Shown: piece by piece, positions 1,059-64,000 of the stretch
Layout: each line of letters begins with the position of its first letter
How positions within the stretch are numbered: position 1 is the first letter of the stretch
NCBI GenBank assembly: GCA_900618425.1
Contig: UZAN01040020.1
Span: 8,336 to 72,335, forward strand
Direction: 5' to 3'
DNA length: 64,000 nucleotides
Origin: Echinostoma caproni
Lineage: Eukaryota > Platyhelminthes > Trematoda > Plagiorchiida > Echinostomatidae
Made by a program: the position numbers and the translations under genes
Notes under the pieces: model-generated
What the model was told of the DNA's origin: nothing
The model's database searches: none
The model's input: only the letters and a program-made list of their open reading frames with translations

Positions 1059-1085
1059 GTGGATCTGCTCCATATCCCACGGGAG
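1059..1085 (+). CDS. Gene A micro-exon, 27 nt, GGSAPYPTG
   Basis: Symmetric phase-1 exon. The acceptor is an unusual AAAG and the donor is GTGAGT. With the preceding G it reads GGSAPYPTG. The flanking intron sequence resembles that around the 2328 exon, which suggests an exon-plus-intron tandem duplication. Confidence -1.
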
Positions 1086-4000
1086 GTGAGTTATTCCCTA
1101 TTCCTTTCCTTGATGCGAGATGAATACGTCCGTATCATTCATTGCTTATAACTACATCGACGTGGTACTATGAACCAAGGAGATACGATATGGTAGGTTT
1201 ATTGTAAACCTGACAATAATCCGTGTCTTTCGCGTTATCACGCAAATAATTCCAACTGTATACAAATGGCTTCTGTGCACGATCAAAACGAAATATTATC
1301 TAAGCTGTTTTACCTCACCCTTTTCTCACTCAATTTTCAACGTTTACTTCCATTTTCTAAGTAAGGTAATGCAGTTATTCGGACTGGGGTACCGGTATAT
1401 CAGAGTTTGCGTACAATACGGAAAATGAACAGCATTCCGACCAAGGTTTCATGATTCAATTAACCGTCTTTCAGGGTGGTTGTTGGTAACCTGTCGTGCT
1501 TATGACTTGTAGATAAAATCCACAGAGGAATGACCTAAAATAATCTTTAGTTAAACACAGTTCATTCATTTTCACAATATTTCCTATGATTACCCTATTA
1601 GTTGCTAATAATAATTTTCTAGGGGAATGCTATATGCAACATGTTTAGAAGTCGATTGAATGTTAGTGAATAATGTAACTATCTTGCTATATTTCATCAG
1701 TGACCAGAGTGTGACTTGTATTAGCCAAAATTGCTAAATACTTTTATGTACTCCTTTTGGTGAAGTCCGTGGATAAATGACGGCATAGAATGTTCAAAAA
1801 TATAGAGGGCTAAGTGGTGCAATAAGAAATTTGCAGTAAATTACCAGTATCATGCTTGTAATCTGATCTTACATCTAAATTCGAACTGTTTTTTTTTTCA
1901 CTGAGACCTTGTTATCTTGAAAATGATGCCCCAGTAACCGTAACCGAAGTCGAGAAATGATTTTAATGTTGCTTGATCAATAAAATCAGAACAATAAGCG
2001 AATTTGGGTACAGATATGTTTCGTCTGACGTCATATTCAATCCTCAGTGTATGAGGCTCGCAACACAAGGCGTAGGGAGAAACACATGTGATGAATGTCA
2101 GAGTGGTGCACCGGTTTGATCAATAGCTTTAAGCTGAAACGAAATTGAAGTAGCAATTCAACATCACCCTGTGGCTTTCGCATTACGGAAGTAAACGGCA
2201 CAAGGGTGTTATAAATATTAGAGGAAATGTTGTTGCATATATGTGATGGATTTTGGCTAGAATACAATCCAAATGGCACGATCGAATGCATTTGTTCATT
2301 CTGATTCATTTCATTTCATTTCTAAAGGTGGATACCCACCATATCCCACGGGTGGTAAGGTAATCTGTAGTAGTTCCTTTCACGTGAAATGAACACGTCT
2401 ACCTCTTAGATTGCTTAAGACTGCTTCGATTTGGTTCTGAGAAGCATTACGTTAGGATGGAGTAGGCTCATTTTAAATTCATCGATTCGGTGTTTCTTCC
2501 AACAGGTTGAATGTGTTATGATCAGCGAATTCCAACTACATTATCTTAAAGAAGAATTATCTTAGCCAGCTACCCTTTNTACCCTTTAACACACTTTCCG
2601 GAAGGAGGAACCGGTAAACCTGGGGGGCTTTTGTACAACAGACTAGAAAGGCAGAGTCCAATCGGAGATAGAAGATTGGAACACATCTCCTCGAGACCAA
2701 TAATAATTGGCCATTTTAGTCATTTGTGTATCATCTTAGAAAACAACAGAGCATTCTTTGATGCAGATGCCTCCAGTGAAACATCTCGATCTGCGAACTG
2801 ACATTCAATGACACATTGATGACCAAAGGAAGCACGTACATGTGCATCCGCTGTCTGAACACGGCCAANGAGATCATCAATGCGGATCGGTTTAATAGAG
2901 CGCATTCGGCGGTAGCGGATGTTTCTCTCAGCTACTGTAATCCATGCCCATGATAACATTCCGCGTTTGTCATCAAACAAAATGTTGCATCCAAATCAAT
3001 TCTCTTCCTGACCAGAATTATTTTATTCACATCAGTTTTATGTATGACAACCATTCTCGATCTCACAGCACTAAGCTTTGCTACCAGTGGTTGATGGATT
3101 TTCTGCCAGTGAAATACTAGATGAGGAGACTTCCACGATCGCCGAAGTCAAAACAAGCTCGATCGTTTCTGCGATTATGAAGTGTTCATTATTCCTGGTA
3201 ATATCGAACACATTCATTGATGGAAGTAATCTCTACCAGTTACTACATACGAAACCACCACTACGAATGCACTGATTGTCTCAACTGTGGTTCATACATC
3301 CAACTAACAGTTGCTTTTGGAATCCACCAGGTCACGTGAATCTCTGTTTATCTCCTCAAATCCACCAGATGAAATTTTAAGGTGGGCTTAGTAGTTTGAA
3401 TTTTTATGTTTATCCATCACATAAATATTGTGAGTAGGGTTTTTGGCGTAAAAAGTAAACAGATATTTAATAGATACATACGTTCTATTGAATTTGAAAT
3501 TATTTTGAATTCCTTAAAATTGTCTCTTCCAGTTTGTCTTATTTAATTTTGATGGTAGAAGGGAAAGTTGTAACGTGCGGTCGATTTCAATATTTCACCT
3601 AAGAACAACACAGACGTAGTAGGGAATTACACGCAATTACGGCTGCATTCGCAAGTCATTTGCGATTCCCGTTGTCGTCATACCATCAGAGACGATCTGT
3701 AACAATTCAGAGAACACATATAAAAGATTACAAACAAAATCCACCAATTAATTGCATTACCACGTTGTCTCCCCCGGTGTTTTCACACAACTCAATGACA
3801 ATAACCCTTGAGGTAAACCACGACTAAGTTCATTGTATTCGTCCGCGTCCAGATGCAAATGTGCTTATTTTCTTGTCTATTCCGCCACACACTTTCGCAT
3901 CTCAGGTTCATCATCAAACAAGGCGCCGTATCCAAGTAAGTTCAGCAATTTGCATGAAGCACATTATCGGTAACATCATTGAGCTACGCAAATCACCGTA

Positions 4001-7000
4001 TACTGCAGTTGAAACTGCAACCAGGAGAGATTTGTTTCCGGATGATTTTTTTGTTATCTTCACTTGGTAATTCCTAATGAAAATTGTGGTAATTCCGGTG
4101 TAATGCCAAACATCCTCATTCATCGCATTCCTCCAAATCGCACTACCTGCTCTATCGATGAAATACATATATTTGTGTCTCACGTAACATCAGCCAATCA
4201 GCAACATATACATCTGGACATTGTGCCTCCTACATTGTTAAATTGCTGAACTTTTGCAGTCAAACTGCTTGGGAAATATCATTCAAATTGTCATCCAGTG
4301 AACCTGGAATATGTTGCAATGGGACTAAATTATGCGGTCACATCAGTTGTGTGTTCTAAACACTGTAAGCATGATAACGCCAAAATTGGTCTTGTATTTT
4401 CGAGATATTGCCTTCGTCAAATATCCGGATCCCCGGAAAAGCATTGGAACTTCTAAAAACACCGGTCAACAAGCATGTTTAATGCATGAAATGATCAAAC
4501 AATTAATATCATCGCATTTGAATTATTATAAAAAACGATAAATTTTATGATCTATTTCAATTCTAAACGTTTCCAGCTATTAATAACACGAAATCGGGTA
4601 AATGTGGCATTCAAATTGTCTATCTCTTCTCATTTGTGATATCAGCGTTCTTTAGACGACAGTCACAAATTTTTTTGGGTTGTCTTTTTCTGAATGTACT
4701 CAAGAGCTGAGTTCCATTCTGTATTATTATTATTCAAGGTCAAATCCGCTAAATTTGTTCTGTTATCAATTTCCAACAACCAATTACCAAATATTCTGCT
4801 ACGCATTCCAACCCCAGCCATCTGCATAGATAAAGCTAAGGAAAGTATTCCATAATCCTCTTTGATTATAATTGGCAAACGGTACAAATTGTATCCTGTG
4901 TGCATTTCTACGCAGCATTGCACGAATCTGGTGGGGTAGCCGGATAAGCAATGCTGAGGTTAGGGGCAGAGTTTTGGGTAAATACGGTCGCCCACTGGAG
5001 CAATTGGTCGACCTCCATAGATTACGTTGGCTGGGACATGTGTTACGCATGTCACCAAGTAGGTTACCACGGCGAGCGATGTTCGCCGAAGCAGATACCG
5101 AGTGGAAAAAAGCCAAGGGTGGTCAAGTTAAGACCTGGCACGAGGGTATGAAAACCCTGACCAGGAAACTGGGTCACATAGGTCCTGTTAGGCTCCCTGG
5201 CTGGGGACCTGGGGATGATCGTAACCGATGGTTAGAGATACTGAGCGATATGGCTGGGTGTCGTAAGCAGTGGCGTTTGTGCATCTCCTCTCAATTTCTT
5301 TCCAACCTTAGTCCACTGAACCTCTCCGTTTTCTTTTCGAATCCACTTTCAACTTTCCTGTCTTCTCCTATTCTTCATCCCAATGGGCAGCCAAAATATA
5401 GCATCCAAAACCGGCGCACGAAAGTACATGGTTAATGGTTGTTCAAACTGAACTGAACTGATATGTGCATGCATTCACCTCATTCCGTTTTGCATTAATC
5501 AAGACGGATACGCACCATATCCAACAGGGGATAGCTTTCTCACCGAGTTAAGCTTTGAAGCAAACCATGGTGTGAACACAGATTGTTCCTGTGCTTTTAA
5601 GGGCTAGATTTGCATCATTGTTGATGTGTCAGTAATAAGACACTCAGGCGTTCAGCTAATTTTCTCTACCCAATTGCTTTTGGCGCAATCCGCGTGTCTC
5701 ATATCAATAAGACTGATTCAACTTCTGTATTTATCTTAATTTCCAGGTGGTTCCTCATCATATCCCACAGGCAGTAAGTTACTTCCAAACATTCCTTTGT
5801 TCTTCCGAATGCACATTCTTTGATTCATTATCAAGTTAGGATAGAAAGGTAGGGAAAGAAAGCTATTCAATTTCACCAAAGACCAGAGGCTTCATTTATC
5901 AGCTGAATCAGACGATGCGGTTTTCTACAACTAGTTCACTATCTCTGAACTGGGTTTACAGATACAATGATTGCAGTTTTATTCCATCTGATCTATCCTA
6001 TCGCACGACAATGCGTTTGATAGAGAACTGATAAAACTTGCTATGAAATATTGATTTTTTTGTTTCTGTCGACGTTCAATCGATCGTCTTTCCTTTGGTC
6101 CTTTGTTAGGTGTGCCATGGGGTTGAAAATTTTCCCGGTGTGTTGATTGCATGCGAAAAAAGTGTTCAAAATGCTGAAGGACAATCAGCAGCTGATCCAC
6201 AAAGCGGGGTTCGAAAGACAAGGTACAGGGATCAGAAGGAAAACACCAGTAATCGAAATCAAGTACTCAATTTTGAAACTGCATGATATAGAGACCAATC
6301 AAGTTTCCTGTTGATCCAGAGGTTTTTTGAAGGGCATTTTATCTGTGGAAATTTGAATAGTTGAGTTTCATTGATGCCACTGAACAACTGCGAAATTCTT
6401 GGGCTACGAGAAACTTAAATAATTGGCTGTTTACTGCGTGGGCAAATCAAATGTATGTTTTACAAGTATGCTTCAACATTGCATCTGATTTCAATGTTTT
6501 GCATCGTCGATGCATTCGTCACTAAAATTTAAGACAATGTTTTGCTGGGTATTCTCTAAAGATTAGAATAGAATGAAGAGCACTGAATCATTTATAAATC
6601 TGTCACCTGCCCTGAGTGTGTGATACGTAAGAGCAAAGGTTACGTAACGATTACAAGTGCGGCATAACAGTCAGTGGTCATTGAAACAGTAAGAAAATCA
6701 TCAATTTTGGTTCGTCATCATTCAGAAATAATCATCGGACACGACGGATTTCCGTAGAAAGACTAAATTGCAGTTTCGCTCTTATTAAGTCTGATCAGTG
6801 TAGTAACTTTACGGCCTCATCTACCTCGTGCATCTTGGATTCCAGAAATTTAGAGCATTTTTGTTGCTACTGCGTTAAGCAATCCCCATCGATAATGACT
6901 GAAATCATCAACCAATTGTTATTCAAAAGTGATATAAAATGACGGCTACTTGGTTCTAGGTCAAATAACTATTCACAGGAATGTTGCAAAAGCAGAAACC

Positions 7001-10000
7001 GTTTCCGCAAAATTTCCATGGCTCGAGAGTTTTTCCTATTTATTCAAATACTTCAACGCGTCACATAAATCCGGATGATTTAACTTCAACAATTGCATGC
7101 ATTTTTCAGAATTGTGATTCAATCCTTGGTGAAACAATTTTTTGGTTTTCCAGCTAAGAAGAAAGTAATACCCTGTGGGACCAAAATCTCTATGTGTTCT
7201 TTGTGTTTCACAGCAGGCCAATTTTCCCCTTGAAATGAGTTTATTCTGATATGAGATGTGATGATGGAAAGCATCATGCATCGGATGTGCAGATCTATCC
7301 TCAGCTAAAAACAACAAAATATTAAAAAATACGCAAATGAAGCATGAACATTGTTCGTTGGTCATTTGCCTGTGTAATTCAAGCCGAAAGAGAATTGTCA
7401 CAAATTGTAACAATACAGGTGCTAATCGAACGCATACAACATCACTCTGATTTCGCAAATATATTTCAGTCTCTAATATGATATTTGTATATTTTTGGCT
7501 ATTGGTGACGTTTACGTATTCCGAAATGTATGTTCTTAGTTCGTTGTATTTGCATGACCTTGAGAGTTGCGATAAAGTTTATGGCTCGAATTTGAAAAGT
7601 GCGAAGTGGAATGGAAATTTATTCTATCTAACAAATGACTCTTGTACCATGGTAGTGTTTATTAAGTTGGGCCTACGTATTCTAAATTGTTTATCTATGT
7701 TCATTCGGTGCACACTAAATAAATCAATAAATGTAAATATTCTAGCTTAATTAACTTGATAAATTATTTGGCTGCATAGGTTTTTGTATCTCAACCGAAT
7801 CTTGAACCGCAAGAAGAAAATCACGTTGCCAGTGAACAATCTGACTGCGGAATACACAGTACAGTACTGTCTGAAACGCCCAGTATACTACTCTGCAGAT
7901 CTTCAGCAGTACTGTAGCTATTTTAATCAGTTAAAAATATTGTTCTATTATTCATACGAAGCAATTATCGAGCAATAGAGCGAATATTCAAACGCATAAA
8001 ACCATTTTTTCATGACTATGGTTTTTGTTCCCACAAATCTTCGCAATTCAGGTGGATCCATAAAGTATCCTTCGTACACGGGTAAGCGATCGGTTCCCTT
8101 TCTGATTGCATCAAACATTCGCAATATCGCACAATTTAATGCGTTGTGTGAGGTATTATGAAGACAAGTTTCCATTACTTTGGATTAATAATCGTGACAC
8201 TAGAACTGTTTGCGAAAATTTATTGTTTGCCAATATCCTGTTTGCTATGACTATCTGTGATACGTGGATATTTTGTAACCAAATGCCCTCATTCAATCTC
8301 ATTAAATTCCCTCGTATAAATACGCTATTGCGTACTCTGTAAAAACCCCACAAAATCTTTGTTTACGTTGATCGTGGAAAACGTCCGTTAGCTTCATAAC
8401 TTTATTACAGCGAGTGATCCGATTTACTAACTAAAACCCGGGGGCACTTTTCCCAAGCCTTGTAGTAAGAATATCGTGGGATTGCATCACTAAATGGAGT
8501 TACCACTGAGTTGTCTATCTCAACAAAAGATGTCGTTCTATACACATATGGATAATGACGAAGAATAAGGCACGTCCAAACCGTTACGGTCATACTGCTG
8601 TGGAGCGCTGCTCAAGCGAGTCCTTCAGAGTGGATAATTCGTTTGCCCGCTTATGGCAAGTTCTTCACTGATTTCAGTCGGCCTCCTTGGTCGAAGCTGA
8701 TCGAATTGGAGGAACTCACGGGAAAGAGGCACCGAAATAATAAGTACATTCTGTCAGATATCCCAAACCGATCTACTCCATTGTCATTTTGACATCTTTT
8801 ATAATGATGGTGGAAGTAGCATATTTAAACAGACATCTGAGTACAGGCTGTGTGCCAAACAAATCACAATTGTATAATCTCTATGAAAATGAACCAAAGA
8901 TCCATGAGGGTGCTGGGTTACCTAGATCAAGTAAAATGGATATTCTTGGAAAATTCGCAACCACAGCTATCGGCTAGCCAAAGCCTGACCCGCAAGGCAG
9001 TGGTGCGGTGCACCAACACTGAAATCCATTGGGGGCCGGTATTCAGTTCATTGGATCTGTGCCGGTGGGACCTTTTACATTTCGCAAAAAAGATCCCAGG
9101 TGTAGGTGACCAATGATCATTAGTTTACAGTAAAAAAAAATTAATTGTGAGGGATACAAGCCACTGCCCTCTCTTTATATAGGTAGTGTTTTGAACACCA
9201 TGCATCATCAATTGAACAGAATCCTAAAATGATCAAACGTTCCTCATGAATGAATTACCCAATAAAAATGAAAGTTTTGAAGAAGGGTGGGTTAGCTCAG
9301 CACTTAACTGTTTTTCATTGTTGATCCAGTCCGATTTGTTTACTGATGGCAGGCATAATTGTGCTCCCCTTGACACTAGGTGATGCAACGACATTTCAAA
9401 AATCCTTATCACTTTCCATACCAAAGGTAATAGAAATCTAGCAGTTCAGTGAATGAGAATGAGGATAACAAAATTGAGCCATGGCTGACTGATTCGAAAA
9501 GCCATGATCATGATGAATTCGAAGCTGATGTTTTATTTGCATTTACCATAAACACACCATTGAAATCCGGATAAACGTCAATAGAAAAAGTGATTGACAG
9601 TAGTGATTAGCTTGAAAAAAAACAGCAGAAGGAATTCTACAGAAATGGTTCTGATTATTTAGCTCTTATATTTCTCCAATAATAGCATGATTAAAATGTT
9701 TTCCTAAGGAAAAACAGTTGTATCAAAACAATTAAAATAAACCGAGTAATGGATAATTTATTCACAGTAAGTTTTTTGGGGGCGGTACTGGTGAACACCT
9801 TGTTTTAGTTCCAGGCGAATTCACAGAGACAGGTTCTGTGTATTGTTCTTCTGGTTGAAATAGCCCACACTGGAGAGAAAACTATTCGTGAATACCAACA
9901 CAGAGCAGTTGAGCAATGTTGCTTCCTTGCTGGGGCTCGTTACCGGTGCAGACGGGAAATCCCGCGGTTCAAGAAGAACAAATAGTACCCACTTGAATCA

Positions 10001-13000
10001 TTGGGGTATAATTAGGTTGACAGTGGCATGTCTCGAACACACAAATCGAGAGCAAACGGTTTGCTGATCCGGACACCCCGAACCACTTGGTGCCTCTGAG
10101 GAGGGTTTGTGGTGCTTCAGCCAAAATCATATTTATTAGTTCAACCACAGAATCATTGTTCTACTTCCAGTCTAAAACAATCACAATTTGGTTAACTCAA
10201 GTGTTCGGTGATTGACTACAACCGCAAGTTCTCCAATTGTCTTTCGACAGTTTTGCACCGTCCGCTGGCAGCATAATCATTCATCCAACTGAAAGACAAG
10301 ATAAATGCAACTCTGTTTTCGGTCAAGCGATGTATGAGGATGGGTGAATGAAACACTTTCTTCGGTTGCGAATTTAACACACATCGAGTTGCTCGTATCA
10401 GATACTGTTGTCAGTGTCTAACATAACACAGGGACAGATCCTCGGTATAGAACGAAAAAAATGCATTTAAAGTCGATGAAAATGTTTGTGATAACAGACA
10501 AAGAGCACCGTACACCTGTTTCATCCTGTTTGAAACTAGTCGAACCGCGAAACTTCGGGCTGGGATACGGTCGACGGTTCCTACCTTGCTCAATCAATTT
10601 GGTTGGTGAATGTTTCCAGTGGCCTATTCAGTTTTTTCTCAAGTACCAGGCACTGTTGACTGTTTGGTGTGGGTTTCACTCCTTAGGAAATGGTTAATGC
10701 CCCATTAGTTGAATGCATTTGAATGTGTTGGAAATGAAAAATCGAATGGGTAATCCAAACATTTAACATCTTAGACGAATGCACTTTTTTAAACCGATTT
10801 GTTGTATTGACGTTCTTCACTCGTGTATCGCAATTGAAAACAGTTCAGAAAGTACAGAGAAATCGATGGAATCGTCATCCTAATGACTCAACTAGAAAGG
10901 ATTATCGTTTTAGCTGTTCCCAGTAAATTTTGGAAAAATACATAAACATGTCACCGCTTTGGACCGTGCGGTGACACGATGCTACAAACTAGGTGAACAT
11001 CGTAATCGGCTAGTTAACTGAACAAGTTACTGGTACAAGATGAGTAAAAACACGATAACTGGGGCGGGAAACGTTTGACGGAATCATAATCATTTGTAGG
11101 TTACGTAGTTGTATGAACTAAAATCATTAATCACTAAAATATCAGCCAAAAGTTTGTACATATACCACTCAGTCTTCCACGTCACACAGAGTGCTTTGAA
11201 AGCGTTCTGATATGTTCAATAAACTGTGTTCGTGTTCAGTGTGATGACTAAGTATTTCAACCTGAGTAAAATGCGGTTGTTCAGTTTTATGTTTCAGTCA
11301 TTTTTGCTGCAAATAAACCTAATAATTAGAGGCGTTTCTGTTCAGTTGCATTTCGGTCCTGGCTGAGTAAAAATAAATTGCATTGTCTGAGATAAAAAAG
11401 TAACGATTCCAGTGAAATGCCTAACAGATATATATATTCCTCTATACACATATACATATATCTATGCATTTTACCCCAATAATCTCAATTCTTACAGGTG
11501 ATTCAGATTACTTTCCGAGTTACTCAGGTAAGCTTATTCTATAGAAGTTTGTTTATTCTCATCGCCAATGTTTTACCTTTTCTTTTGAGCAGACAGGTGA
11601 CATACAGAAGTTATATGGTTTTGTGATGGATCTGTCAATAAGATTAGAAAAATATGAATTGCAGTTTTGCACCATTGATTCATCGACGGAACACGAATCA
11701 TGAGAAGAGCATGATGAGAAATAATTTGGATCAGTAAATTATTGAACACTGTGCGGAATTCACCATGCCATCAACAACTGGCATGTATCTATCTTCACCG
11801 GTGATGGTCTTCATGGATGCTTGCAGTCGCACAAATAGTGTAGACGGGTTTTAGTGACAAAGATGGTCGCTGATGTTCGTCAGAACCTGTTACTAATTTT
11901 TACTCATGTTCTTTCTGGGTATCCGTCCCGGAGGAAACAGAACCAAGAATTGGAATTATAGAAACGTTATATTCTGAAACTTCCGAAACGTTGGAAGTGA
12001 TTTTTTCTAGCAATGATAGAGGAAATCTGAAAGCAGATCTGATCATTAGAAAGGAAGCGAACGATAGACAGCTCACCTTAGGGAGTTGTACCAGAGCGGT
12101 CTTTTCGATCTCATTCGGAGCACGATAATAGTTAAAGCAAAACTTAATCGTGGAAATGTCCAAGTTGTTGTATCCAATGAACAGACCTTCTCTGGAAAAT
12201 CACTATTGCCAAATAATGGTGATAAATGGTAAATCTCGACGGCACACTTGATTGTGTTCCCGGCCGAGAACGGTCATCACGTTTGGAGGAAAAGCGTCAC
12301 TGTGACCTATCGTTTATATGAAATCCACCTGGTCAATGGGGCTGAATCGCTAACTGATATCCTAAGGTTGTTGGTTCTGGTAAGAATGCCATGGTAATGT
12401 AAACATGTCATGCTAGTCCTCAATTACACAGGATTGTCCTGCTGCTAGTCACACCAGAGTAGGATGGAGGTGCTTCTGATCCGTGATTCGATGATCACGT
12501 CCAGCTTGAATGGATCTATTAGGAAACAAGAAGCACGAAGCAAGAATAGAAAACTGCCGTTGAGAAACTGTCGGTTGAAGAACCGCTGCAGGGTGACTTA
12601 TAATTCCAAATGTTGGTAAACTCCCGCCAATAAAAATACAAACTATGGACCGCATAAATTCACACAGATGAAATCGCAATATTCGTTTGCTCTATTCAAT
12701 TTATTCAGATGCGATTCAGGTGTACAAGGAGTAGTTGAGCTCATTCCCTGATTTGATTGTAGAAGGACGGCAGGCAGATGATGATCTTAGTCTAGCGGAG
12801 TACCCGGTGTCCTCCAGATTCAGCCACTGCAGTATTACTACTCTCCGTAACAAAACTTGGTATACACATCCTCTTGTAAGTTACGTTACAGTGTGAGTTT
12901 GAAGAGGACCCTAAAAAGATTAACTAAACAAGTTGCTGAGGATACGACGTCTTTAAGTACGACACGCAAGGCATCGAGTCAGCAGGATAGGCCACGTTGT

Positions 13001-14072
13001 CCAGTGAGGTCAAATCTCAGCGCAGGCACTGATCACAATGGGACAATTTATTTTGAATTCACTTCCATTTGTGTGTAAACCATTATTGGTGCAAATAAAT
13101 AAATAAAAGTATACTATTGCTGCGAAACTGCATTACCTTAATAGCTGAACTAAAATGATTTGCATGGTTTGAAATCGAATAATGGTTCCAATGGAAGACT
13201 TTGGGTGAACAAGAATATTCTCACTCAGGCAATTAATCCCCTTTCACAGGAGATTCAGTCTTATTTCCGAGTTTTTCAGGTCAGTGTATGATATGAAGGC
13301 CTATTCATCTGCTTCCGTCTACTTTTATTCCCACTGGTGAACAAAAAGATGATGATAGGGCAAGTGTTAACAAATTGTGAAATCTCCCGAGAACTTGCAT
13401 AACGAATCCCAATTGAAAGAGCAGCGTATTTTTTCAATTATTCCTCAGCCTTTGAATTCCGTTGGTGATTTGATTTAATTGAAATTTGACTCTCCAAATG
13501 GTTTCCGGACTATTTTATCAACGTGATCAAGGCTGGCGTGATAGCATCAACAATTCATTTGCTGCGCTAACCCTGCCTTTGTTGAAGTGACTACTCCGAA
13601 GCCCCACGATAAAAACATCGTTACACTAGACATGTGATTTGTACACGATGAAATTCGAATAATCAATTCACCTTGGTTAGATGGATTCTCTGGGATTTTG
13701 AAGCCGACCCTTAATGACTTCTCAACACCAACCGAAGTGGTCCCAGTGATTAGATGCTCTAAATTTGGGTTACGGGCGATTTTTGCTAGTCCTTTATTAA
13801 CCAGGTAGTAAAATGCTTTTGGAATCCGTTCGGCAAACGGCAGACTGAAACGATCGACGAACCCGGCCCCATCGGGTAGCAGGGGTACAGATCCAAGCAT
13901 ATAAAATTTGTTGATACTGGCGTTGATTTCTCAGTCTCACACACGCAAAGAATAGACTCAATCTCCAGCACGCAATATGCAACTGAATATAAGCTGTTAA
14001 ACTTTGACAATACATTAACGACATAATTTTCACCGCACGGACGGCTATGATGTCATTATCGTCCAAACCCTT

Positions 14073-14130
<58 letters not shown>

Positions 14131-14133
14131 GCC

Positions 14134-14191
<58 letters not shown>

Positions 14192-14192
14192 G

Positions 14193-14250
<58 letters not shown>

Positions 14251-14252
14251 GA

Positions 14253-14309
<57 letters not shown>

Positions 14310-41119: not shown

Positions 41120-41148
41120 TGTTCCTCCTCCTCCTCCTCTTCCTCCTC
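41120..41148 (+). repeat. CCT-type simple repeat
   Basis: TCC/CTC units over about 29 bp. Confidence -1.
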
Positions 41149-42847: not shown

Positions 42848-42896
42848 TAGATATAGATGGCTAAACGGTTTGATAGTGAAGTGTTTTTTGAACACA

Positions 42897-42939
42897 ATGA
42901 TCTTCCAGCTGAGTGTATCTTTCATCCTATCTTTGGCAT
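42897..42939 (+). CDS. Gene B exon 1, signal peptide
   Basis: ATG start followed by MIFQLSVSFILSLA, a typical hydrophobic signal core; phase-1 donor GTAAGT. This ATG is chosen because it follows the TATA element and gives the correct phase for the first micro-exon. Confidence -1.
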
Positions 42940-48900: not shown

Positions 48901-51900
48901 TCGTTTTCCAAGATGCCCCTATTTGTACTTGATTAGTATATGGTAACCAATATAGCAATGTAATATTTTATCAACTACTCATTAACAGGCCCACAAGATG
49001 AAATCGTTTTGAGACCCACACACACCGTGTTGTCATCTAAAAACCAATGACATCGTTGTGTTTCTCATTTTATTGATCACAGATAACAGTGGTTCATACT
49101 ATCGTAAGTTTTTTTTTCTCAAATCGTAAAATATTCCCATTGACGCATGAAAACAAAGTCAAAACGCGAAGAAATTTCTTTTCGATATCTCGCTTCAGGT
49201 ATTGACATATATAGTTTGATTAGTCAGTAGATTAATACAAGGCCTAGGCTGATGTTGAATCAATGTCTGTGTGCAAAGTTATCTGTTGACAACAAGCTGT
49301 GGGATCACGATAATTGACATTGGACATTGGTCTTCGTCGTATGGAGGATGGTCACATCGAACGAAGAATATGCCGTAAGTGCACGTGGATTGGACAGTAC
49401 ACAGATTTTCAAAGCTTTGTCCCACTGAGATACAAATGGCATTAAGGGAACTGTTTAGCATGCAGGGCAAAGAGAATTTGTAGTCCGGAGACTCTGACCG
49501 AAGAGTTGACCTATACAAAAGACATCCTCAAGAAGAACGGATACACAGAGGCGTCTATTCGATGACATATGGAATCGAAACCAACTGATGCAAAAGTACA
49601 ATTGGCAAGAAAGGTGTTTGCCAACGTTCCCTTCAAAGGAGACAAGGAATTAGAAATCCTGGAATATCGGTTATCCAAAGCCATTTCCAAATGTTTTCCC
49701 GCGGCGTATTTAAGACTCCCATCCAGGACTAAGCCATTCATTGTTCAACAACTTAAAGATAAATTGCCCCATCAGTCCCAATCCTTTGTTCTATATCAGT
49801 TCACGAGCACTTGTAGTGCTCGTTATATCGGACACACAACGAGACGTTTGTCTAAGAGAATATCTGAACACTGTCCGACCGCCCTTCGAAAAGGAACAGT
49901 GAGAAGCCTAAACAGCTCAATTCTGCAACATTTAGGCGACAGTGGACACAGGATTGACCCAGAAACATCATTTACAAATTTCTTCACTGCACCTAAGAAT
50001 CACGCCAAAGGATTACGTAGAAAGATCCTGACAACTGTGAAAGCCATAACAATTACGATCATGAAACCGGATTTGAGTAAGCAACGTTATCTGGTTCAGG
50101 CCCTGATGTTACCATGTTACCCGTATCCCTATGTGACACCTATCCTCTCTCTTCCATTTCCCCCAATCCCCATTCGCTATCATTTTCTAAAACGTTCACA
50201 CCTGTTTTATTCACTCTGGACTAACACATTTCATATCATCACCAGTTCACAAATTTTTCATTCCACTTTTCTCTATCCAATTATCGTGATCCCATTGCTT
50301 GTTGTCAACAGATAACTTTGCACACATACATCCAATCAACATCTGCCTAGGCTTTGTATTATTCAACCGACTAATCGAACTATATATGTAAATGTCTGAA
50401 GCGAGATATCGAAAATAAATTTTTTTCGCGTTTCCACTTTGTTCGTATCGTAAGTTTATACAACCAATGTGTTGATGTAAATTCTCTACTGAAATGATAT
50501 CATTGTCGGATAAACTTTATCAAATCTTGAGTTTTTGGTTTTATGAACCTTGACATTTTCTGGCACTATTAATCTTATAAATCAATCATGAAAGAAGAAG
50601 GGCAGGTCTTGACAAGCCAGTGCGTAGGAACGTTACAAGGTCAATCGAATACAGCGTCATGGTGCAAAAAACAACCTGGCAATGTTTCACCGAATATTTT
50701 GTGACTTCATGAGTTATGCCCAAACAAACTGCAAGCCATCCACGAAAGCTCCGTGGTTGCTCCAGTCATGTTGTTGTCACGTCTATTTACTGGAGTAGGG
50801 AGGTCACTAAGATTTATTTTCTGGGAACGCGAGTAGTGATCTGCGTGCGTATTGGAAATTTCTGATAGTACCCTGATTGGAATGTCTATTCGGTCAAGCT
50901 AACCGATCGATATTAAGCAACAGGGAAACTCACAAGTTAGCAGGTCACGATTCGGATAAATAGTGGACGATGAAAATTGGCCTGACATGCAAGGCTTTCA
51001 GAATGAAGTTATCTGTGGCCGCTGATAATTTTGTTCTCCTGCAGGAACGTGAGCATTATGTAGTTGTTTTCTGATAAACTTCTTGATTACTGAGATTCGG
51101 TTCCCTGGGTTCGAGTTACACAGGCAAGCTCTAGCAGAGTGAATGCAGCTGGTCAGAGATAGACCCAACAGTGCAGCACTTAAGAGGGCGCTTTTGTTTA
51201 ATCATTGAATACTGGGATATAACAGAGTCTGCGACTAAGACAGATCACCTAGTATGACTTATATTGCAACAATAGGTGAGGTGTTTGGCATATCAAGATA
51301 AAGCCTTGCTTTTGAGGCAAAGACTGATTGTTGAGAAAATTTTATTTATTCAGTCTTGCCGAAATGTCATATGTTTAAGTGGATTGTAACATAGTAGGTT
51401 ACCATAAAATCCAAACGTTGCTTTTCTTCCGGCCTTCGCAAAATACATCACAGTGTCTACCCTTACATTTCGATACCATTATCTTTATTTGGCTTTTGCT
51501 GCAGCGAAACATTGATGTTCAGTTCAAATCAAACCGGAAAAGTAGTTTTGATTCATGACGTAAAAAGAAGTAATCGATACAACAATTAATTTAAAACAAC
51601 CACTTATTCCTCCTGTTACATCATGGAAAATATGCAAAATAACGTTTCGATGCATTCAATTTGTCATTTGATATTTCGCTATTCTTTCCTTTATTGTTGA
51701 ATCTTCCTAAAACAATCGATCAATCATATGGCAATATGATATCGAGATATCAATCGGCTCCCAAACACACACTGTTCTTATGCATCGGCCAGGAAATTCC
51801 ACTTTGTAATCTATTGCATGTGGCAATTCGCCAACTGGTAAACTGGGGGTGAATCAGATTTCGTTGACTGCACCCAGTTGGAGTGCATAATGTTTCAGGC

Positions 51901-54900
51901 ACCGTTTTCCATCGGAACAATATGTGGATACATTGATGAATGTGGCGAATGTGATTGGAAAATCGACAAAATATCAGGTCTTCGGGGAAAAACGTCCATT
52001 CCATAAAAGAAAACGTTGTTTTTTGTTCATTTGAAGTTTGTGACAACTAGTAGATACGATGTTCAATATACATGCAATATGCTATATGGTTCAATCAGTT
52101 AATAAAGACCTACTACCTTGAACAAAAAAGAAAGCAGTGACCTTTTGCAGACGTTATGCACAAGATTTATAACGCATCTTTTTCTCACTCGTTTCTTCAT
52201 TCCATGGAAACCGCGCCTTCGTAGCTAACACAGTCCTATGTGAGTTTTGACATTTTAACCTTTTTTGTGGATTTCTTGTGTTTTTCATCCCCAATCAAAT
52301 AATGCCCACTGAAAGATAAAATGCATTGTTCATAGTGGAGCCGTCTGTTATCAGTCGTCATACCATGGTTTAAAAATATGAGTCCAAGTAATCGAAACAC
52401 GAACGTCTCCACAGACTGGAACATCTGCGGTTTTATTAATTGTTGAGAATTCGTGATGTGAATCACAAATGCGTCTTTTCCATCAAACTGAATGAACCAC
52501 TGTGGTGCGACTGGAAACGACACCGGCATTGTGATAATCTGATTCCTTTTAANTAGTCTACTTGTTTGAAGCGCGGCTCCAGAAATGCGGTTAAAAATAC
52601 CCTATCCCCGAAAGATTCGAAGGATATAATCTTGAGTCTCAGTTTCCATGCTTTGTTTGATGTGCTAATTATATTAAACTAGTTATTTCTGAACAAAAGA
52701 TAGGTTTGTTTCTTCGAATTTCTCCCAATTAGGAATTAAACTGAACAAAATGCACTATTTTATTCATCCACCAAGTGCGCAGAACCAGCATACAAATAAA
52801 TTTAAACCAGCACTTTTTATTGGAATATGTTTTAGCTGTATGAACAGGTACACAAAGCCCAATTCAAACAAAACATGAACTGGTGAAAATATTCGTTCTT
52901 AGTTGTTTAAAATCATACCATCACATCGCAATCATTTGTTCATTCGTCATCCGATGAGGAGAAAAAGCGATCTTGGGAAAGAGAGCATTCCACATCTAAG
53001 AAAAGTAGGATTGGTTTTATAATGATGTCGGGGATAAAACCCACGCAGCTGATTATTTTGGTCTCAAGATGAAAACAAACCTATTCATAATAATGTCTCC
53101 GTAATTATATATATATGTATATATATATAGTGCTTTGCTTGCTAGCGTTGGTGGTCCGGTGGCAAAGATCATCAAATTATCAACCCCGAATGACGGAGGT
53201 TCGAAACACGTTTAATCAACATTGTATCACGGTCTATGCGTTAAAAAAAAGAAAACGAAGAAAAAATTTGATTACAAAACACTGAAAAAGAAGCTGAATT
53301 ACCGATCTGAAACGTTTTATGATTTCCAAATATGATCTACTGATCCCAGTTTACTTCGTCACAACACTACTGATGTTGGCTTTATTCAATATTTAAAAGC
53401 ATCTTACCGTCATTCCGTTTCACTTAGTCTCTTGGTATTCTCAAATAACCACTAAGCCAATCACTTCTAACGATTTGGCTGCATGCGGTAGCAAACCGTC
53501 TGCCCTACCGATTGTGTTTTTGTCATGTTCGTGCTTATTGAAGACAATTTTGCTCTAACAGAACGCACGTTATCAATCCTTTATACTGTACTTTGATAAG
53601 CGTTTTATAATTAACATTGCATCTTTCAGTGGTTTATGTTACCGGAAAACCATATTTCAACAAACATTCCGTGTCAATCACTAGTGAAATGAAAAGAGTG
53701 GGTTCAACCGCATATGTGAAACTACAAACCGAATTATGTCAGACCGTAAGTACAACATATTGCATTGTGAAACAAATGGGAGTTTGTTTGGATGTTTACA
53801 AATATGTATAACAAAAGGGAGTATTTTCTACTGACTATAGAAAATTCATTAGTTCAGAACTAACTCGTACATAATGAAAATATGTTAATCAAGATATACG
53901 TTTTCTGAACGGTTTTGATAAGATCCTTCTGGGATAAATCTACCTTCTTTGCGCCAAACAATGATTACTTCACTACACCCTAGTGATTTGCATATACATG
54001 TCGGTTCATTACTACCCCTCTATAACTTCGTAATCATACTGCCCCGTGTCGTTCGTGTTTCAAAACACCAGTAGTTTGTGCAGAAATAACCTACTGGTAT
54101 TTGGTAACAGAAGTAACACTTGTACAGACTGGCCCTGAGCTTTCTCGGGGAGCCATATCACTTTGTTTCCATAGAAAAACAGAAGTTCTTCAATGACGGT
54201 ACGGTTTCGAAATGTTGCATAAACACATTCGCTTAGTTTCCCCATAAGTCCAAAAGACTACTGAAGAGATTTTTATCACCAGTCATCTTAAATCCTACAC
54301 ATAGTTCTCAGTAACAGGTTTCATTGAATGAAACTATTCCTGTGAGACAGAAAGCACGATGTTCGGCAAGTAGGTCAGCGGGGGGTTGTTGATTTTGACG
54401 AGAAATAACTCCAAAACGTGGTTTAATTTAGTTAACAAACATTGAGCTGACCGTAAACTGATGGAACTAATCTTGCCACAACTTATTCCCATGCTTTTTT
54501 CCTTTTTGTAGGTGGCCTATGGGGTTTCATCGGACTCGGCTCTGTCGAAGAGTTATTCGTCTTGCCAAATCTCTCGAGTTTTATCGGAGAATGTTGAAAC
54601 ACGCCTCGGGTTCAATGGATACGCTTTGAAACAACAGAAATTGGATATCAGATCATCGACATTCTCCAGTCGGCTGAAAAAGGCTATTCTCAGTTATGCA
54701 CCTTCCAGTTTCTACTACTATGGTGTTATAACAAAAATCAATGGTAAGGGTCTGTTGAAAGAAGGCTTATTGCGAGCAGTACGATGTTTTACGAAGAGCA
54801 TTATGATAGACGAACGTTTTCAGCTTTATAAACAACTTGAGTCCTTTTTCATTTATCCTTGATTTATAACAGGTGTAGATCGTAATTGTTTCAACTCCAT

Positions 54901-54955
54901 TTTGAGCAGTGGTCTAATTCTCGTGCTGACAGTTTTCGGAAGGACTACGTTCTAA
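42897..54955 (+). CDS. Gene B: complete micro-exon gene (212 aa)
   Basis: The model has twelve exons: 42897-42939, 43514-43531, 43686-43703, 44032-44061, 44929-44946, 46857-46874, 47738-47767, 48715-48726, 49083-49103, 53630-53745, 54512-54743 and 54873-54955. The coding sum is 639 nt, 212 codons plus stop, with no frame break. The protein has a signal peptide (MIFQLSVSFILSLA, cleavage probably after VQA). A Gly/Tyr/Pro/Asn tract of about 55 residues made only from micro-exons follows (GYPNYS, NPHGSYNQYP, GYYGNG, SYGGYP, NPPGNYPQYP, SSNK, NNSGSYY), then the domain shared with gene A (two conserved cysteines) and a hydrophobic C-terminus. A ninth micro-exon at 47400-47417 has lost its GT donor and is left out. 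Tyr/Gly-rich trematode proteins can be eggshell components, but the hydrophobic tail favours a surface or anchored secreted protein. The match to schistosome MEG architecture is strong; the family name is unknown. Confidence -1.
43514..43531 (+). CDS. Gene B micro-exon, 18 nt, YVQAQY
   Basis: Acceptor TATCAG, donor GTAATT. In context it reads Y-VQAQY. The likely signal-peptidase site (VQA before QY) is carried by this micro-exon rather than by exon 1. Confidence -1.
43686..43703 (+). CDS. Gene B micro-exon, 18 nt, GYPNYS
   Basis: Acceptor CTCCAG, donor GTGAGT; encodes GYPNYS. The exon and its flanking intron sequence are duplicated at 47400, where the donor is mutated. Confidence -1.
44032..44061 (+). 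CDS. Gene B micro-exon, 30 nt, NPHGSYNQYP
   Basis: Unusual TAAG acceptor after a C/T-rich tract, donor GTATGT. It encodes NPHGSYNQYP. The paralogous exon at 47738 uses the same TAAG acceptor. Confidence -1.
44929..44946 (+). CDS. Gene B micro-exon, 18 nt, GYYGNG
   Basis: Acceptor ATTTAG, donor GTGAGT; encodes GYYGNG, symmetric phase 1. Confidence -1.
45421..45540 (+). repeat. tRNA-derived SINE-like repeat, family 1, copy 2
   Basis: Intact A box (TAGCTCAGCTGG) and B box (GGTTCGAATCC). Acceptor-like stem GCCTCG at 45442 pairs with CGAGGC at 45515. The variable region is long and flanks match the 298 copy, so a SINE head is more likely than a working tRNA. It sits in a gene B intron. Confidence -1.
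46857..46874 (+). CDS. Gene B micro-exon, 18 nt, block YGGYP
   Basis: Acceptor TTACAG, donor GTGAGT. In context it reads S-YGGYP; symmetric phase 1. Confidence -1.
47400..47417 (+). pseudogene. Gene B micro-exon with lost donor (GYPGYS)
   Basis: A good acceptor (CACTCAG) and 18 nt in phase encode GYPGYS (first residue Ser after the preceding exon). The donor reads ATGAGT where the paralogous exon at 43686 has GTGAGT. The next downstream GT (GTTAGT) would add 16 nt and break the frame. It is probably skipped in mature RNA. Confidence -1.
47738..47767 (+). CDS. Gene B micro-exon, 30 nt, NPPGNYPQYP
   Basis: TAAG acceptor, donor GTAAGT. It encodes NPPGNYPQYP, the duplicate of the 44032 exon. 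Confidence -1.
48715..48726 (+). CDS. Gene B micro-exon, 12 nt, block SNK
   Basis: Acceptor ATCAG, donor GTAAGT. Only 12 nt, coding four residues (S-SNK in context). It is the smallest exon accepted, supported by both splice sites and phase 1 at each side. Confidence -1.
49083..49103 (+). CDS. Gene B micro-exon, 21 nt, NNSGSYY
   Basis: Acceptor ATCACAG, donor GTAAGT; encodes NNSGSYY. It occupies the same position as the 21-nt gene A exon at 17628. A Penelope-like element begins about 80 bp downstream, in the next intron. Confidence -1.
49185..50440 (+). mobile_element. Penelope-like element in gene B intron
   Basis: The frame 49569-50315 carries the linker (LEYRLSKAISKCFPAAYLRL), a GIY-YIG domain (SARYIGHTTRRLSKRISEH) and the C-terminal IMKPDLSKQ. 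Upstream (49500-49560) the thumb piece ILKKNGYTEASI remains before a stop. The left end 49185-49312 is an inverted copy of the right tail (50260-50430). The reverse transcriptase core is missing. Confidence -1.
50441..53629 (+). other. Gene B intron remainder
   Basis: Apart from the family 3 SINE-like fragment at 53136, no coding or RNA feature was recognised. A TA repeat lies near 53106-53130. Confidence -1.
53136..53215 (+). repeat. SINE-like repeat, family 3, fragment
   Basis: GGTGGTCCGGTGGC, then CATCAAATTATCAACCCCGA and GGTTCGAAACAC. Related to 40115; the tail is lost. Confidence -1.
53630..53745 (+). CDS. Gene B domain exon 1 (116 nt)
   Basis: Phase 1 in, phase 0 out; acceptor CTTTCAG, donor GTAAGT. 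It starts LVYVTGKPYFNKHSV and ends ELCQT, paralogous to gene A exon 20077-20171 but seven codons longer in the middle. Confidence -1.
54512..54743 (+). CDS. Gene B domain exon 2 (232 nt)
   Basis: Phase 0 in, phase 1 out; acceptor TTTGTAG, donor GTAAGG. 77 codons, the same length as the gene A exon. Conserved marks are SDSAL-x-KSY, one cysteine, NVETR-x-G-x-N, LSY-x-PS and YYYG-x-IT. The 129-bp intron that follows is unusually short for this gene. Confidence -1.
54873..54955 (+). CDS. Gene B terminal exon, hydrophobic C-terminus
   Basis: Acceptor ATAACAG, phase 1. It encodes GVDRNCFNSI then LSSGLILVLTVFGRTTF and TAA. The Ser/Gly/Asn-rich stretch before a short hydrophobic end suits a GPI signal; a tail anchor is the alternative. 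Confidence -1.
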
Positions 54956-55989: not shown

Positions 55990-56165
55990 GGAAACACGTT
56001 CCGTTTTCCCTACGTACATGCGGACCAGAGGTTTGCACATCACCGTAAAATAAAGACCAGACCTGACAGGAACACAAAAAGTACGCACTGCTGACGAGTT
56101 CCAAACAGGACAAAACAGCTGTCCAGTGCTCTTTGTCGGTCATCACAGACATTTCCATTCCATTA
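55990..56165 (+). repeat. SINE-like repeat, family 2, opposite orientation
   Basis: Reads GACCTGACAGGAACACAAAA, GTACGCACTGCTGACGAGT and CAGTGCTCTTTGTCGGT, the reverse complement of the family 2 copies at 22330 and 58180. Confidence -1.
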
Positions 56166-61169: not shown

Positions 61170-61260
61170 GATTTTTCATAGGCACCAGGCACTGCTGACG
61201 ATCTTCGATGTGCGTTTCACCTCCTTGGGAGATCGTTCAGCCCTCAGTTCTTCGCTTGAT
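61170..61260 (-). repeat. SINE-like repeat, family 2, fragment
   Basis: Only the distal part remains: CACCAGGCACTGCTGACGAT and the following GGGAGATCGTTCAG. Confidence -1.
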
Positions 61261-61757: not shown

Positions 61758-61768
61758 GTAAATAAATA
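61758..61768 (+). promoter_or_regulatory. Candidate TATA-like element of gene C
   Basis: TAAATAAATAG lies 50-60 bp before the gene C ATG, comparable in position and form to TATATAAGTAG before gene B. Weak evidence. Confidence -1.
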
Positions 61769-61817
61769 GCATGACGGTCAGAACTCAGTTTTAGTTGGCG
61801 AAACAACGTGTAACATA

Positions 61818-61875
61818 ATGGTCAACATGCTTCACCTACTTCCGCTTGTCCTGTTAGCTACCTCGGAAACGGCAG
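61818..61875 (+). CDS. Gene C exon 1, signal peptide
   Basis: Encodes MVNMLHLLPLVLLATSETA plus one base; donor GTAATT in phase 1, the same phase as gene B exon 1. The hydrophobic core LLPLVLLA supports secretion. Confidence -1.
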
Positions 61876-64000
61876 GTAATTCCGATATTTACGAACGTGG
61901 TTCAAATTTCCAGTGCATAGTTTTGGGGAGCAATCTTTGCAGATATACTGGTTTTTATACTAACAAAACGTTATTTTACTTGGAATGTTTTTATTCAAGT
62001 TAATGACAACGTTTTATACATTGTTCATGTACACAACTTTGTGGCTAACTGTGGAAGTTGTGTTCACTCCAGTACGAATGTGGGGTTTGCATTTCATATT
62101 ACTGACAAAAAAATTAAAATATGAGAAAATATATAAATATGTCTACACATCCGATAAGTCTGCTTTGATTGGTACTCACAATTTCAAAACTATTTGATTT
62201 CAAATTGTTGGAAACCTAATAATTGTGATTTGTTTGTAATACGAATACCCGAGTGCGAATAGTGAATTCATAGACTTTATCTTCACATACCCATCCACAC
62301 AGGAGGCTTGCTGTAGACTGGGATTATCCTTCTTCTGCCATTCAAGTCCATGGTGTAATGGAATGACGCTGGATTGTGGAAGGTTGAGGCTGAAGGGGAA
62401 TTATTGGCAATCCCTTACACGTATCTAGCCATAATTTCTAACAGTAGACGACACTAATATATCCTAACATTATCAGGTGACTTTCAGTGAGTAATGGAGC
62501 CGAGAGATTACCGTAGAGACTCTCAAATCAGAGAAAAATCGGCGAAAATTTCCACGCAAGCTTTATGAGTTAGTGATTGATGCCCGATTTGACGGCTAAA
62601 GAATACTTTTAAATAGAGATCTTTTCGTGGAAGGAAACACGAAAGTTACTGGTACCAATGTTATTGCTCTGAGGCATTCTTTGCCCTGCTCATTGACCTA
62701 AGCCAGATTAAATGGGCGAGAAATGAAGCAGCTCGTCTTATGTCTCTTTTTCAGTAATTCATCTATCCAATTGTTAATTGGACGAGTAACTGTGGATTAT
62801 ACTGGAGCTGGATATCCAATAGCTTTAGATGTGACTCTTAAATGAGCCAGTGGAAATTAAGTTCGTACGAACTCTCCAGCTGTGTGGCAATAGATATAAG
62901 GATTGCGCGTACGCGATAGCATAATGAACAATATTTCAACCCTAGAAGTGAATAATCACTTATCCTAATACCATGAAAAAGGTAATACAGGGAGGTTCAC
63001 CAAAGTAAATGTCCTCAAACTTATTCTACAATGCACCCAAATTCTGGAGTGCTGCTGCTTCTAGTCAATGTTTAACAAAGTCCATTCACAATTCCGTTAA
63101 TTTTAAGATATGAGAAATAACATATTTGAGTTTATGTACCAAATTGATTGATGGAACTTATCTGTTCTACTTTTCTCTCTCAAACAGCTTACGGTTATTA
63201 TTCGAGTGAGTTCGTAGTTTCCGTGTGCTAAAGTGTTTATCATTCGTCGGTTGCTCTTTCAGCTTACATCAATAGGCTACCGTTAAATTTTCCCTCAGCA
63301 ATTTCTCCGTTCCCGCCATTTGCCTCCTACAAATTTGATTACGTGGTAATTGACACAATCCTGGCTGTTTTTTACAACCTTTATACCTTTGCTTGGCAGC
63401 TGATTGTAAATTGTAATACACAAGGCAGCCAGAACTACAGACCATCATTGCTCAATGTCGCGCCAACGTTCCCCGGGCAAAATTCAAGTTTTCATTTTAT
63501 TTATCCACATTCTGTAAGGCTCAAGCTATTTATCTCAGAGGACTTGGACGCTGCTATATGTTGGCATAGCAACTTGGATATGGATTATATAACAAACCAA
63601 ATGAAATCTATCCGATGGAGTTATGATCTGAAACCTCGATATCTTCGAAAATGAAATTTTCATTACAAGCATCATGCTGGATAGAAAACACAATAAATAA
63701 ATATAGAGAGTTTCATTTTTATTCTCAAACATCACTACTCCTTTGGAAGAACGAATACTGCTGTGCATCAGGCCACTTTAAATGTCATTTCCCAAGTGAA
63801 ACTAAGATCCAATTTCCCCACTCGTTATGCAGCTTCCTTGGGTTTGTAATTCCGCCAGATGCACAGACCGGGCTCCCTAAGCTCAAAGTTCTAACAACTG
63901 ATAGTTCAGAATTCCGAAAATTATTGACCTTTTGTAATAAATCTAATTTCAGACTCTTCCACATCTACCGGTGGTTTACCTGCAACATCGAGTAAGTTTT
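61818..64000 (+). CDS. Gene C: micro-exon gene, 3' end outside the window
   Basis: Third gene of the tandem set. The signal exon is 61818-61875 (MVNMLHLLPLVLLATSETA, phase-1 donor GTAATT). Micro-exon 63188-63205 encodes AYGYYS and micro-exon 63953-63991 encodes NSSTSTGGLPATS, both symmetric phase 1 with consensus splice sites. A possible further exon, 63263-63511, opens after an acceptor with a long reading frame but ends in phase 0, so it does not fit the micro-exon rule and is left out. The rest of the gene, including any conserved domain, lies beyond the window. By architecture it belongs with genes A and B; sequence homology cannot be tested here. Confidence -1.
63188..63205 (+). CDS. Gene C micro-exon, 18 nt, AYGYYS
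   Basis: Acceptor AAACAG, donor GTGAGT; encodes AYGYYS. Same size and place as gene B micro-exon 43514-43531. Confidence -1.
63953..63991 (+). CDS. Gene C micro-exon, 39 nt, NSSTSTGGLPATS
   Basis: Acceptor ATTTCAG, donor GTAAGT; symmetric phase 1. The block is Ser/Thr-rich, unlike the Tyr-rich blocks of gene B, and could carry O-glycans. It ends nine bases before the window edge. Confidence -1.

Follow-up and report, generated by a model that had tools for sequence, protein, structure and literature searches.

The locus and its micro-exons

The stretch of DNA analysed here (the window) comprises 64,000 nucleotides of the trematode Echinostoma caproni, positions 8,336-72,335 of the forward strand of contig UZAN01040020.1, which measures 96,674 bases as a whole, and it holds three genes that lie head-to-tail on the plus strand, in which runs of micro-exons are followed by a common C-terminal domain that looks like a divergent SEA domain (hereafter, the SEA-like domain). 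The gene models contain 20 intact micro-exons in three runs (10, 8 and 2), all of them bounded by AG and GT, 12-39 nucleotides (nt) long, divisible by three and in phase 1 at both ends, which bears out the preliminary description of this DNA, where at least nineteen such symmetric exons had been placed in three groups on one strand. In the following lists each micro-exon rests on the splice-site scan and the gene model, unless other sources are given.

Gene 1 consists of ten micro-exons (1059-19685), two domain exons and a tail exon ending with a stop at 23171; its start is unreadable, because the 8,335 contig bases ahead of the window are all N.

1059..1085 (+), micro-exon, 27 nt, phase 1-1, GSAPYPTG
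2328..2354 (+), micro-exon, 27 nt, GYPPYPTG (also repeat comparison)
3906..3935 (+), micro-exon, 30 nt, SSSNKAPYP
5504..5530 (+), decayed micro-exon look-alike without GT donor, excluded from the model (reading of the sequence; absent from the scan lists)
5747..5773 (+), micro-exon, 27 nt, GSSSYPTG
8052..8081 (+), micro-exon, 30 nt, GSIKYPSYT
11498..11527 (+), micro-exon, 30 nt, DSDYFPSYS
13250..13279 (+), micro-exon, 30 nt, DSVLFPSFS
17140..17160 (+), micro-exon, 21 nt, GSSFFP
17628..17648 (+), micro-exon, 21 nt, GTGSYT
19665..19685 (+), micro-exon, 21 nt, STTVMR
20077..20171 (+), SEA-like domain exon 1, phase 1-0 (gene model, domain alignment)
21563..21794 (+), SEA-like domain exon 2, phase 0-1 (gene model, alignment, genome search)
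23092..23171 (+), last coding exon, predicted hydrophobic C-terminal tail and stop (frame, stop, hydropathy)

The predicted exons of gene 2 are open throughout from ATG to stop (212 residues), and their frame is fixed from both ends, the ATG exon ending and the first domain exon beginning in phase 1.

42897..42939 (+), predicted signal-peptide exon from ATG, ends in phase 1 (gene model, hydropathy)
43514..43531 (+), micro-exon, 18 nt, VQAQY
43686..43703 (+), micro-exon, 18 nt, YPNYS (also repeat comparison)
44032..44061 (+), micro-exon, 30 nt, PHGSYNQYP (also repeat comparison)
44929..44946 (+), micro-exon, 18 nt, YYGNG
46857..46874 (+), micro-exon, 18 nt, YGGYP
47400..47417 (+), decayed copy of the 43686 exon without GT donor, excluded from the model (reading of the sequence; duplicate pair)
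47738..47767 (+), micro-exon, 30 nt, PPGNYPQYP, copy of the 44032 exon (also repeat comparison)
48715..48726 (+), micro-exon, 12 nt, SNK
49083..49103 (+), micro-exon, 21 nt, NSGSYY
53630..53745 (+), SEA-like domain exon 1, phase 1-0 (gene model, domain alignment)
54512..54743 (+), SEA-like domain exon 2, phase 0-1 (gene model, alignment, genome search)
54873..54955 (+), last coding exon, predicted hydrophobic C-terminal tail and stop (frame, stop, hydropathy)

Gene 3 runs off the end of the window, and its domain was found just beyond it, as a three-gene model with a common C-terminal domain, already put forward in the preliminary description, predicts.

61818..61875 (+), predicted signal-peptide exon from ATG, ends in phase 1 (gene model, hydropathy)
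63188..63205 (+), micro-exon, 18 nt, YGYYS
63953..63991 (+), micro-exon, 39 nt, SSTSTGGLPATS (first exon list and gene model)
64485-64600 and 66005-66239 in extended numbering, contig 72820-72935 and 74340-74574 (+), SEA-like domain exons past the window end

The ATG exons of genes 2 and 3 have 14 and 19 codons, with a mean hydropathy of 2.0 over the best 14 residues, which supports the prediction of a signal peptide in the 5′ exon of both genes, the two groups for which one had been claimed.

The scan took intervals of 12-39 nt scored with generic metazoan splice matrices, a candidate being called rich when at least 60% of its residues were Y, P, G, S, T or N, and the null model consisted of 60 dinucleotide shuffles of the window with 514 N taken out. 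On the plus strand 39 micro-exon-like intervals were obtained vs 17 on the minus strand; 25 vs 4 of them were divisible by three, 24 vs 2 of these were open in phase 1, and 17 vs 0 of the latter were rich, whereas the shuffles gave 6.5 ± 3.0 open candidates (maximum 16) and 0.67 ± 0.83 rich ones (maximum 4). The exact excess over the shuffles does not constitute a formal test, because the matrices are generic and the thresholds and composition class were fixed after the first exon list had been seen; the contrast between strands is independent of the shuffles. Nineteen of the 24 open plus-strand candidates are exons of the gene models, and the twentieth model exon (63953-63991), present in the earlier exon list, was missed by the scan because it is too close to the window end. 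The other five candidates (4577, 16705, 23283, 36227 and 54175) lie outside the models and are about as many as chance predicts, which lends some colour to the idea that all these exons are splice-like sites arisen by chance in introns or between genes; however, the comparison with the shuffles and with the minus strand leads to the rejection of that idea, which is scarcely credible. The micro-exon pattern is real and far above chance. When read at the alternative offsets, the micro-exon run of gene 1 contains 3 and 1 stops and that of gene 2, 0 and 2, and the readable contig 3′ of the window (23,631 bases) has no open micro-exon candidate on the plus strand and two on the minus strand. The candidate at 4577-4597 (+, INNTKS), open and symmetric, lies amid the micro-exons of gene 1 and is indistinguishable from chance.

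A family of C-terminal domains

The C-terminal domain common to genes 1-3 is encoded by two exons (phases 1-0 and 0-1) and has about 110-116 residues; the preliminary description had proposed a shared domain of 77 residues, which was correct as to its being shared and short as to its extent, those residues being the second exon. Identity to the gene 2 domain amounts to 45% for the domain of gene 1 and 32% for that of gene 3, and the differences at codon positions 1/2/3 in the three gene pairs (56/34/74, 61/43/74 and 68/47/77) follow the order 3 > 1 > 2 expected under coding constraint, with saturated synonymous divergence (dS) between the cluster domains.

When the source assembly (426.5 Mb, 12,689 contigs) was searched with three of the domains as queries (gene 2, C8487 and gene 1), seven further copies came to light on five other contigs. 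The gene 2 query found C1706a (E 8e-4) and C8487 (E 0.15), a second-round search found C9584, C11908 and two copies on C4759 (E 3e-36 to 1e-6), and the gene 1 query found C1706b at E 0.34, which was accepted because a first-exon frame is rightly placed upstream and there is a weak SEA match. The family thus has at least ten copies, a count that leaves out C8108:2839-2949 (E 0.54). Six of the seven further copies show both domain exons, always as separate exons, and C4759b shows a single one; the phases 1-0 and 0-1 and the splice sites could be read for both exons in C1706a, C8487, C9584 and C11908, in the two C4759 copies this was possible for the second exon, and in C1706b only the donor of the second exon is plain. 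In a general protein database no homologue of the domain was found (of 49 and 427 candidates not one reached E 0.1), a weak negative because the control, a GIY-YIG open reading frame (ORF) of the window, found just 4 unnamed relatives there and flatworm coverage looks thin. A 20-base pattern derived from a block of the preliminary description had 0 matches, which is uninformative.

In the sequence read around the seven relatives there is no run of micro-exons, with the limit set by N gaps (11,122 of 23,295 bases for C8487, 4,804 of 31,343 for C4759 and 3,566 of 19,916 for C9584). Single micro-exon candidates lie just upstream of the domain in C1706a (21 nt), C8487 (30 nt) and C9584 (39 nt), and farther upstream in C1706b (33 nt), and such single candidates occur on both strands of these contigs. 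An I/V-G-G-Q/K block is common to the candidates C1706:48133-48101 (-), C8487:14354-14383 and C9584:10559-10597, and these are perhaps an ancestral micro-exon, a proposal that is not separated from chance.

Two Cys columns are conserved, in 8 of 9 and 9 of 10 copies, and C11908 has neither Cys, as a disulphide would predict. The G-S-V autocleavage motif of SEA domains is kept in C8487, C9584, C11908, C4759a and C4759b, and is absent from the three cluster copies and from both C1706 copies. In a tree of the ten sequences, G-S-V is present in 5/5 copies on one side of a split and in 0/5 on the other (support 97/97); the tree is rooted at its midpoint, leaves 5 of its 7 inner branches open and has four long end branches, and the two long C1706 branches meet.

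Resemblance to the SEA domain

The domain had not been recognised in the preliminary description, and in this respect its reading changes, since the cluster domain looks like a divergent SEA domain from the Pfam matches of its relatives and from profile alignment. Six of the ten copies matched Pfam SEA (PF01390) at E up to 10: C11908 (3e-5), C8487 (3.5e-5), C9584 (2.4e-4), C4759a (4.3e-3) and, over the same part of the profile, C1706b (0.016) and gene 2 (0.032). In a single profile-profile comparison, the cluster domains aligned with C8487, C9584, C11908 and C4759a over 114 columns with a probability of 98.4 (E 4e-15), and the same two-exon split and phases occur in genes 1-3 and in C1706a, C8487, C9584 and C11908. 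Some accepted SEA domains also lack G-S-V.

Taking the exons and the domain together, the three paralogues probably encode SEA-like proteins that are secreted and anchored in the membrane and whose Tyr/Gly/Pro/Ser-rich stalk derives from skippable micro-exons. Each gene would give a small protein held at the surface, comprising a signal peptide, a flexible stalk rich in Tyr, Gly, Pro, Ser and Asn, one SEA-like domain and a hydrophobic tail, this short C-terminal tail acting as a transmembrane segment or as a glycosylphosphatidylinositol (GPI) signal. As the cluster domains are without G-S-V, the stalk should stay attached, with no autoproteolytic release. The anatomy of the exons, the common domain, the family, the duplicated exons and the missing motif are observed directly, and splicing, isoforms, the SEA (ferredoxin-like) fold, anchoring at the surface, glycosylation and role are predictions.

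A number of observations weigh against this interpretation: (i) none of the ten copies reaches the gathering cut-off of PF01390 (26.4 bits; best C11908 24.5, C8487 24.3, gene 2 14.8), which is why the domain is named SEA-like, Pfam SEA gives nothing for genes 1 and 3, C1706a or the single-exon C4759b, and in gene 2 a YaiO model outscores SEA (E 0.0038 vs 0.032); (ii) searches of the PDB gave no match with the three-copy cluster profile, YfbU first at E 1.1 (chance level) with a five-copy profile, and with the profile of the G-S-V relatives 2e7v on top, listed as a transmembrane protease, at a non-significant E of 0.13, while AlphaFold2 run on the 77-residue second exon alone with two sequences gave a predicted local distance difference test (pLDDT) of 44, too low for a usable model; (iii) some relatives were discovered at weak E-values (0.15 for C8487, 0.34 for C1706b); (iv) hydrophobic tails as good as those predicted for genes 1 and 2 from frame, stop and hydropathy turn up at a rate of about 0.85 per 4 kb of randomly placed sequence and twice in the range of gene 1, and the same test in C8487, C9584, C11908, C4759a, C4759b and C1706a gave 1, 2, 1, 0, 1 and 0, no better than background; (v) gene 3 has only 2 micro-exons between its signal exon and its SEA-like exons, and two micro-exon copies (5504-5530 and 47400-47417) have decayed, without a GT donor; (vi) and finally, all gene models are predicted from genomic sequence alone. 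The candidate tail of gene 3 at contig 76872 is weak by the hydropathy test, and the 701-N gap 3′ of its domain cannot explain how few its micro-exons are. The YaiO and polyhedrin matches of gene 2 (E 0.004-0.1), seen in one of the three cluster copies only, were set aside by judgement.

Composition, growth and decay of the stalks

In genes 1 and 2 the length of each of the 18 micro-exons is divisible by three, and as they are also bounded in phase 1, any one of them could be skipped with the frame kept, so that one gene could yield many stalks on one constant domain. The gene 1 stalk has 31 Ser/Thr and 10 Tyr among its 88 residues and no N-glycosylation sequon, that of gene 2 has 14 Tyr (25%) and 7 Ser/Thr among 56 residues and three sequons, with GY, YP and QYP repeats, and the visible stalk of gene 3 has 8 Ser/Thr among 19 residues and one sequon.

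Tyr-rich repeats are also a feature of eggshell proteins, and the composition of the gene 2 stalk could be taken as that of a structural or adhesive protein of the eggshell or cement type, in which the tyrosines of the repeats would be cross-linked and the SEA-like domain would merely aid secretion or assembly. This explanation appears improbable, as the gene 1 stalk is rich in Ser, Thr and Pro and comparatively poor in Tyr, and the predicted tails of genes 1 and 2 favour, weakly, membrane anchoring.

The stalks bear marks of exon duplication. In gene 2 a pair of exons has been duplicated about 3.7 kb apart (43640-43739/47356-47454 and 44010-44067/47716-47773, 78% alike over 101 and 58 nt). 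In gene 1 the two visible micro-exons nearest the 5′ end sit in segments that are 69% alike (1017-1208 and 2287-2477). In the reading proposed here the stalks grew by local exon duplication and lose exons through decay of the donor. Carried further, the two look-alikes without a donor and the few micro-exons of gene 3 might suggest a decaying cluster, with micro-exon genes of the past that are now pseudogenes; nevertheless, with twenty intact micro-exons bounded by splice sites, a gene 2 open from ATG to stop and constraint by codon position, such a state is very improbable.

Comparison with known systems

According to the rule given in passages of PMC7653826, a micro-exon gene (MEG) has at least 7 exons, half or more of which are below 70 nt and divisible by three, with a run of at least 4. 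Among the predicted exons, this applies to 10 of the 13 visible coding exons of gene 1 (run of 10) and to 8 of the 12 of gene 2 (run of 8), so the MEG architecture proposed in the preliminary description holds for these genes, and not for gene 3 as visible, with its 2 micro-exons. A signal peptide in the 5′ exon is a hallmark of MEGs (passages of PMC4671649), and the cluster resembles the MEGs of schistosomes and tapeworms, as portrayed in parts of PMC10526429, PMC7653826 and PMC4671649, in its symmetric micro-exon runs behind a signal exon, long introns, clustering and small products. The schistosome MEGs 14, 29, 32.1 and 32.2 are anchored by a transmembrane segment and were likened by the authors to cell-associated mucins (PMC4671649, in part). 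The genes differ from MEGs in that a SEA-like domain of about 110 residues comes after the micro-exon run and in that the blocks are rich in Tyr, Pro, Gly and Ser; the hydrophobic-aromatic motif ending in W-p-(K/H/R) that follows the signal in Schistosoma mansoni MEGs (passages of PMC10526429) was not found when the gene 2 product was scanned, and there is no Trp in it.

These likenesses open another path, namely that the cluster is an ordinary new family of schistosome-type MEGs, whose products are secreted and largely disordered, with a lineage-specific C-terminal domain whose likeness to SEA is accidental. Genes 1 and 2 come under the MEG rule, MEG-8 members also have a conserved C-terminus in common (PMC4671649, in part), Pfam SEA detects neither genes 1 and 3 nor C1706a, all of them among the five copies without G-S-V, gene 2 does better with YaiO, and none of the three profiles gave a significant PDB match. 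We nonetheless regard this explanation as unlikely, given the whole-length profile match to relatives that themselves match SEA, the same exon split and phases wherever they could be read, and five copies with G-S-V where a SEA domain should have it.

The nearest counterpart of the SEA-like proteins proposed here is, by description only, the SEA-domain family of Schistosoma japonicum (SjCP1084, SjCP3842 and SjCP1531; passages of PMC3886910 and PMC3434034), which is multigene and has a signal sequence, an extracellular SEA-type domain of about 120 residues, two conserved cysteines, a G-S site (kept here in five relatives) and, in some members, a C-terminal transmembrane region. The two Cys columns of the present family correspond to those cysteines in number. 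In PMC3886910, as far as its passages go, 2e7v is named as a SEA domain and as the best template for that family, which is reported to bind glycosaminoglycans and heme; the positive net charge of the SEA-like domains of genes 1, 2 and 3 (+8, +9 and +5) is in keeping with the glycosaminoglycan binding. In the description of SjCP1531, a unit is tandemly repeated five times, and exons 5 and 6 represent two of its copies. In contrast with the three tandem genes found here, whose copies are without G-S-V, the S. japonicum copies are reported as dispersed, and in the passages concerned they are not described as micro-exon genes (‘micro-exon’ or ‘microexon’ occurs 0 times in PMC3434034 and ‘exon’ 0 times in PMC3886910).

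With the membrane mucins and TMPRSS-type proteases that carry PF01390, the SEA-like family has in common a domain that separates a probably glycosylated stalk from a C-terminal hydrophobic tail, and G-S-V in five relatives; it is unlike them in that all ten copies are under the Pfam cut-off, the cluster has no cleavage motif, two Cys are conserved and the stalk is made of micro-exons. In the open-access literature searched, no paper combines ‘micro-exon gene’ with ‘SEA domain’, and ‘microexon’ with ‘SEA domain’ occurs in one, on vertebrate Gpr126 (PMC6954182, in part). The novelty lies in micro-exon genes that have a divergent SEA-like domain as their constant part; the family numbers at least ten copies.

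Other features of the window

Two matches to the type I hammerhead ribozyme, both above the Rfam gathering score, lie at 22693-22737 (+) and 56085-56129 (+) within segments that are 79% alike, and two tRNA-like repeats (299-408 and 45423-45539, 85% alike), in both of which ARAGORN detects a tRNA and Rfam in the second only, are perhaps a tRNA-derived short repeat. GIY-YIG-like ORF fragments are found at 24314-24724 (+), just below the Pfam cut-off, and at 49566-50312 (+), below it, and for the latter the protein database contains relatives with up to 66% identity; presumably these fragments belong to Penelope-type elements. The hammerheads and these fragments, like the MEG-like and SEA-like family itself, point to a trematode, and a COX1 search of the assembly found nothing. 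There are also two long inverted repeats, 33490-33888/34843-35241 (99.5% identical) and 27209-27537/28539-28867 (98.5% identical, flanking a 504-base N gap), and a long run of Asp codons at 13797-14333 (-) that is probably a simple-repeat tract.

Implications for the origin of micro-exon genes

The products of MEGs have very few conserved motifs (PMC10526429, in part) and their orthogroups cannot be set with confidence (passages of PMC7653826), and for these reasons the origin and function of MEGs are open. A cluster of MEGs in which a domain can be identified, and whose paralogues include some that retain the cleavage motif, offers a traceable evolutionary path and concrete tests. The likely role of the proteins would be that of a variable, glycosylated coat at the interface with the host. 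It is conceivable, and we propose it tentatively, that some fluke MEGs are mucin-type surface genes, in which a branch of the SEA family lost self-cleavage and the stalk, in the cluster, became a set of duplicated, skippable phase-1 micro-exons, giving a coat that varies combinatorially and is not shed. If this were true, at least one group of MEGs would have a domain-based origin, and the cluster may tie the MEGs to the SEA-domain family of flukes that has been described separately from them.

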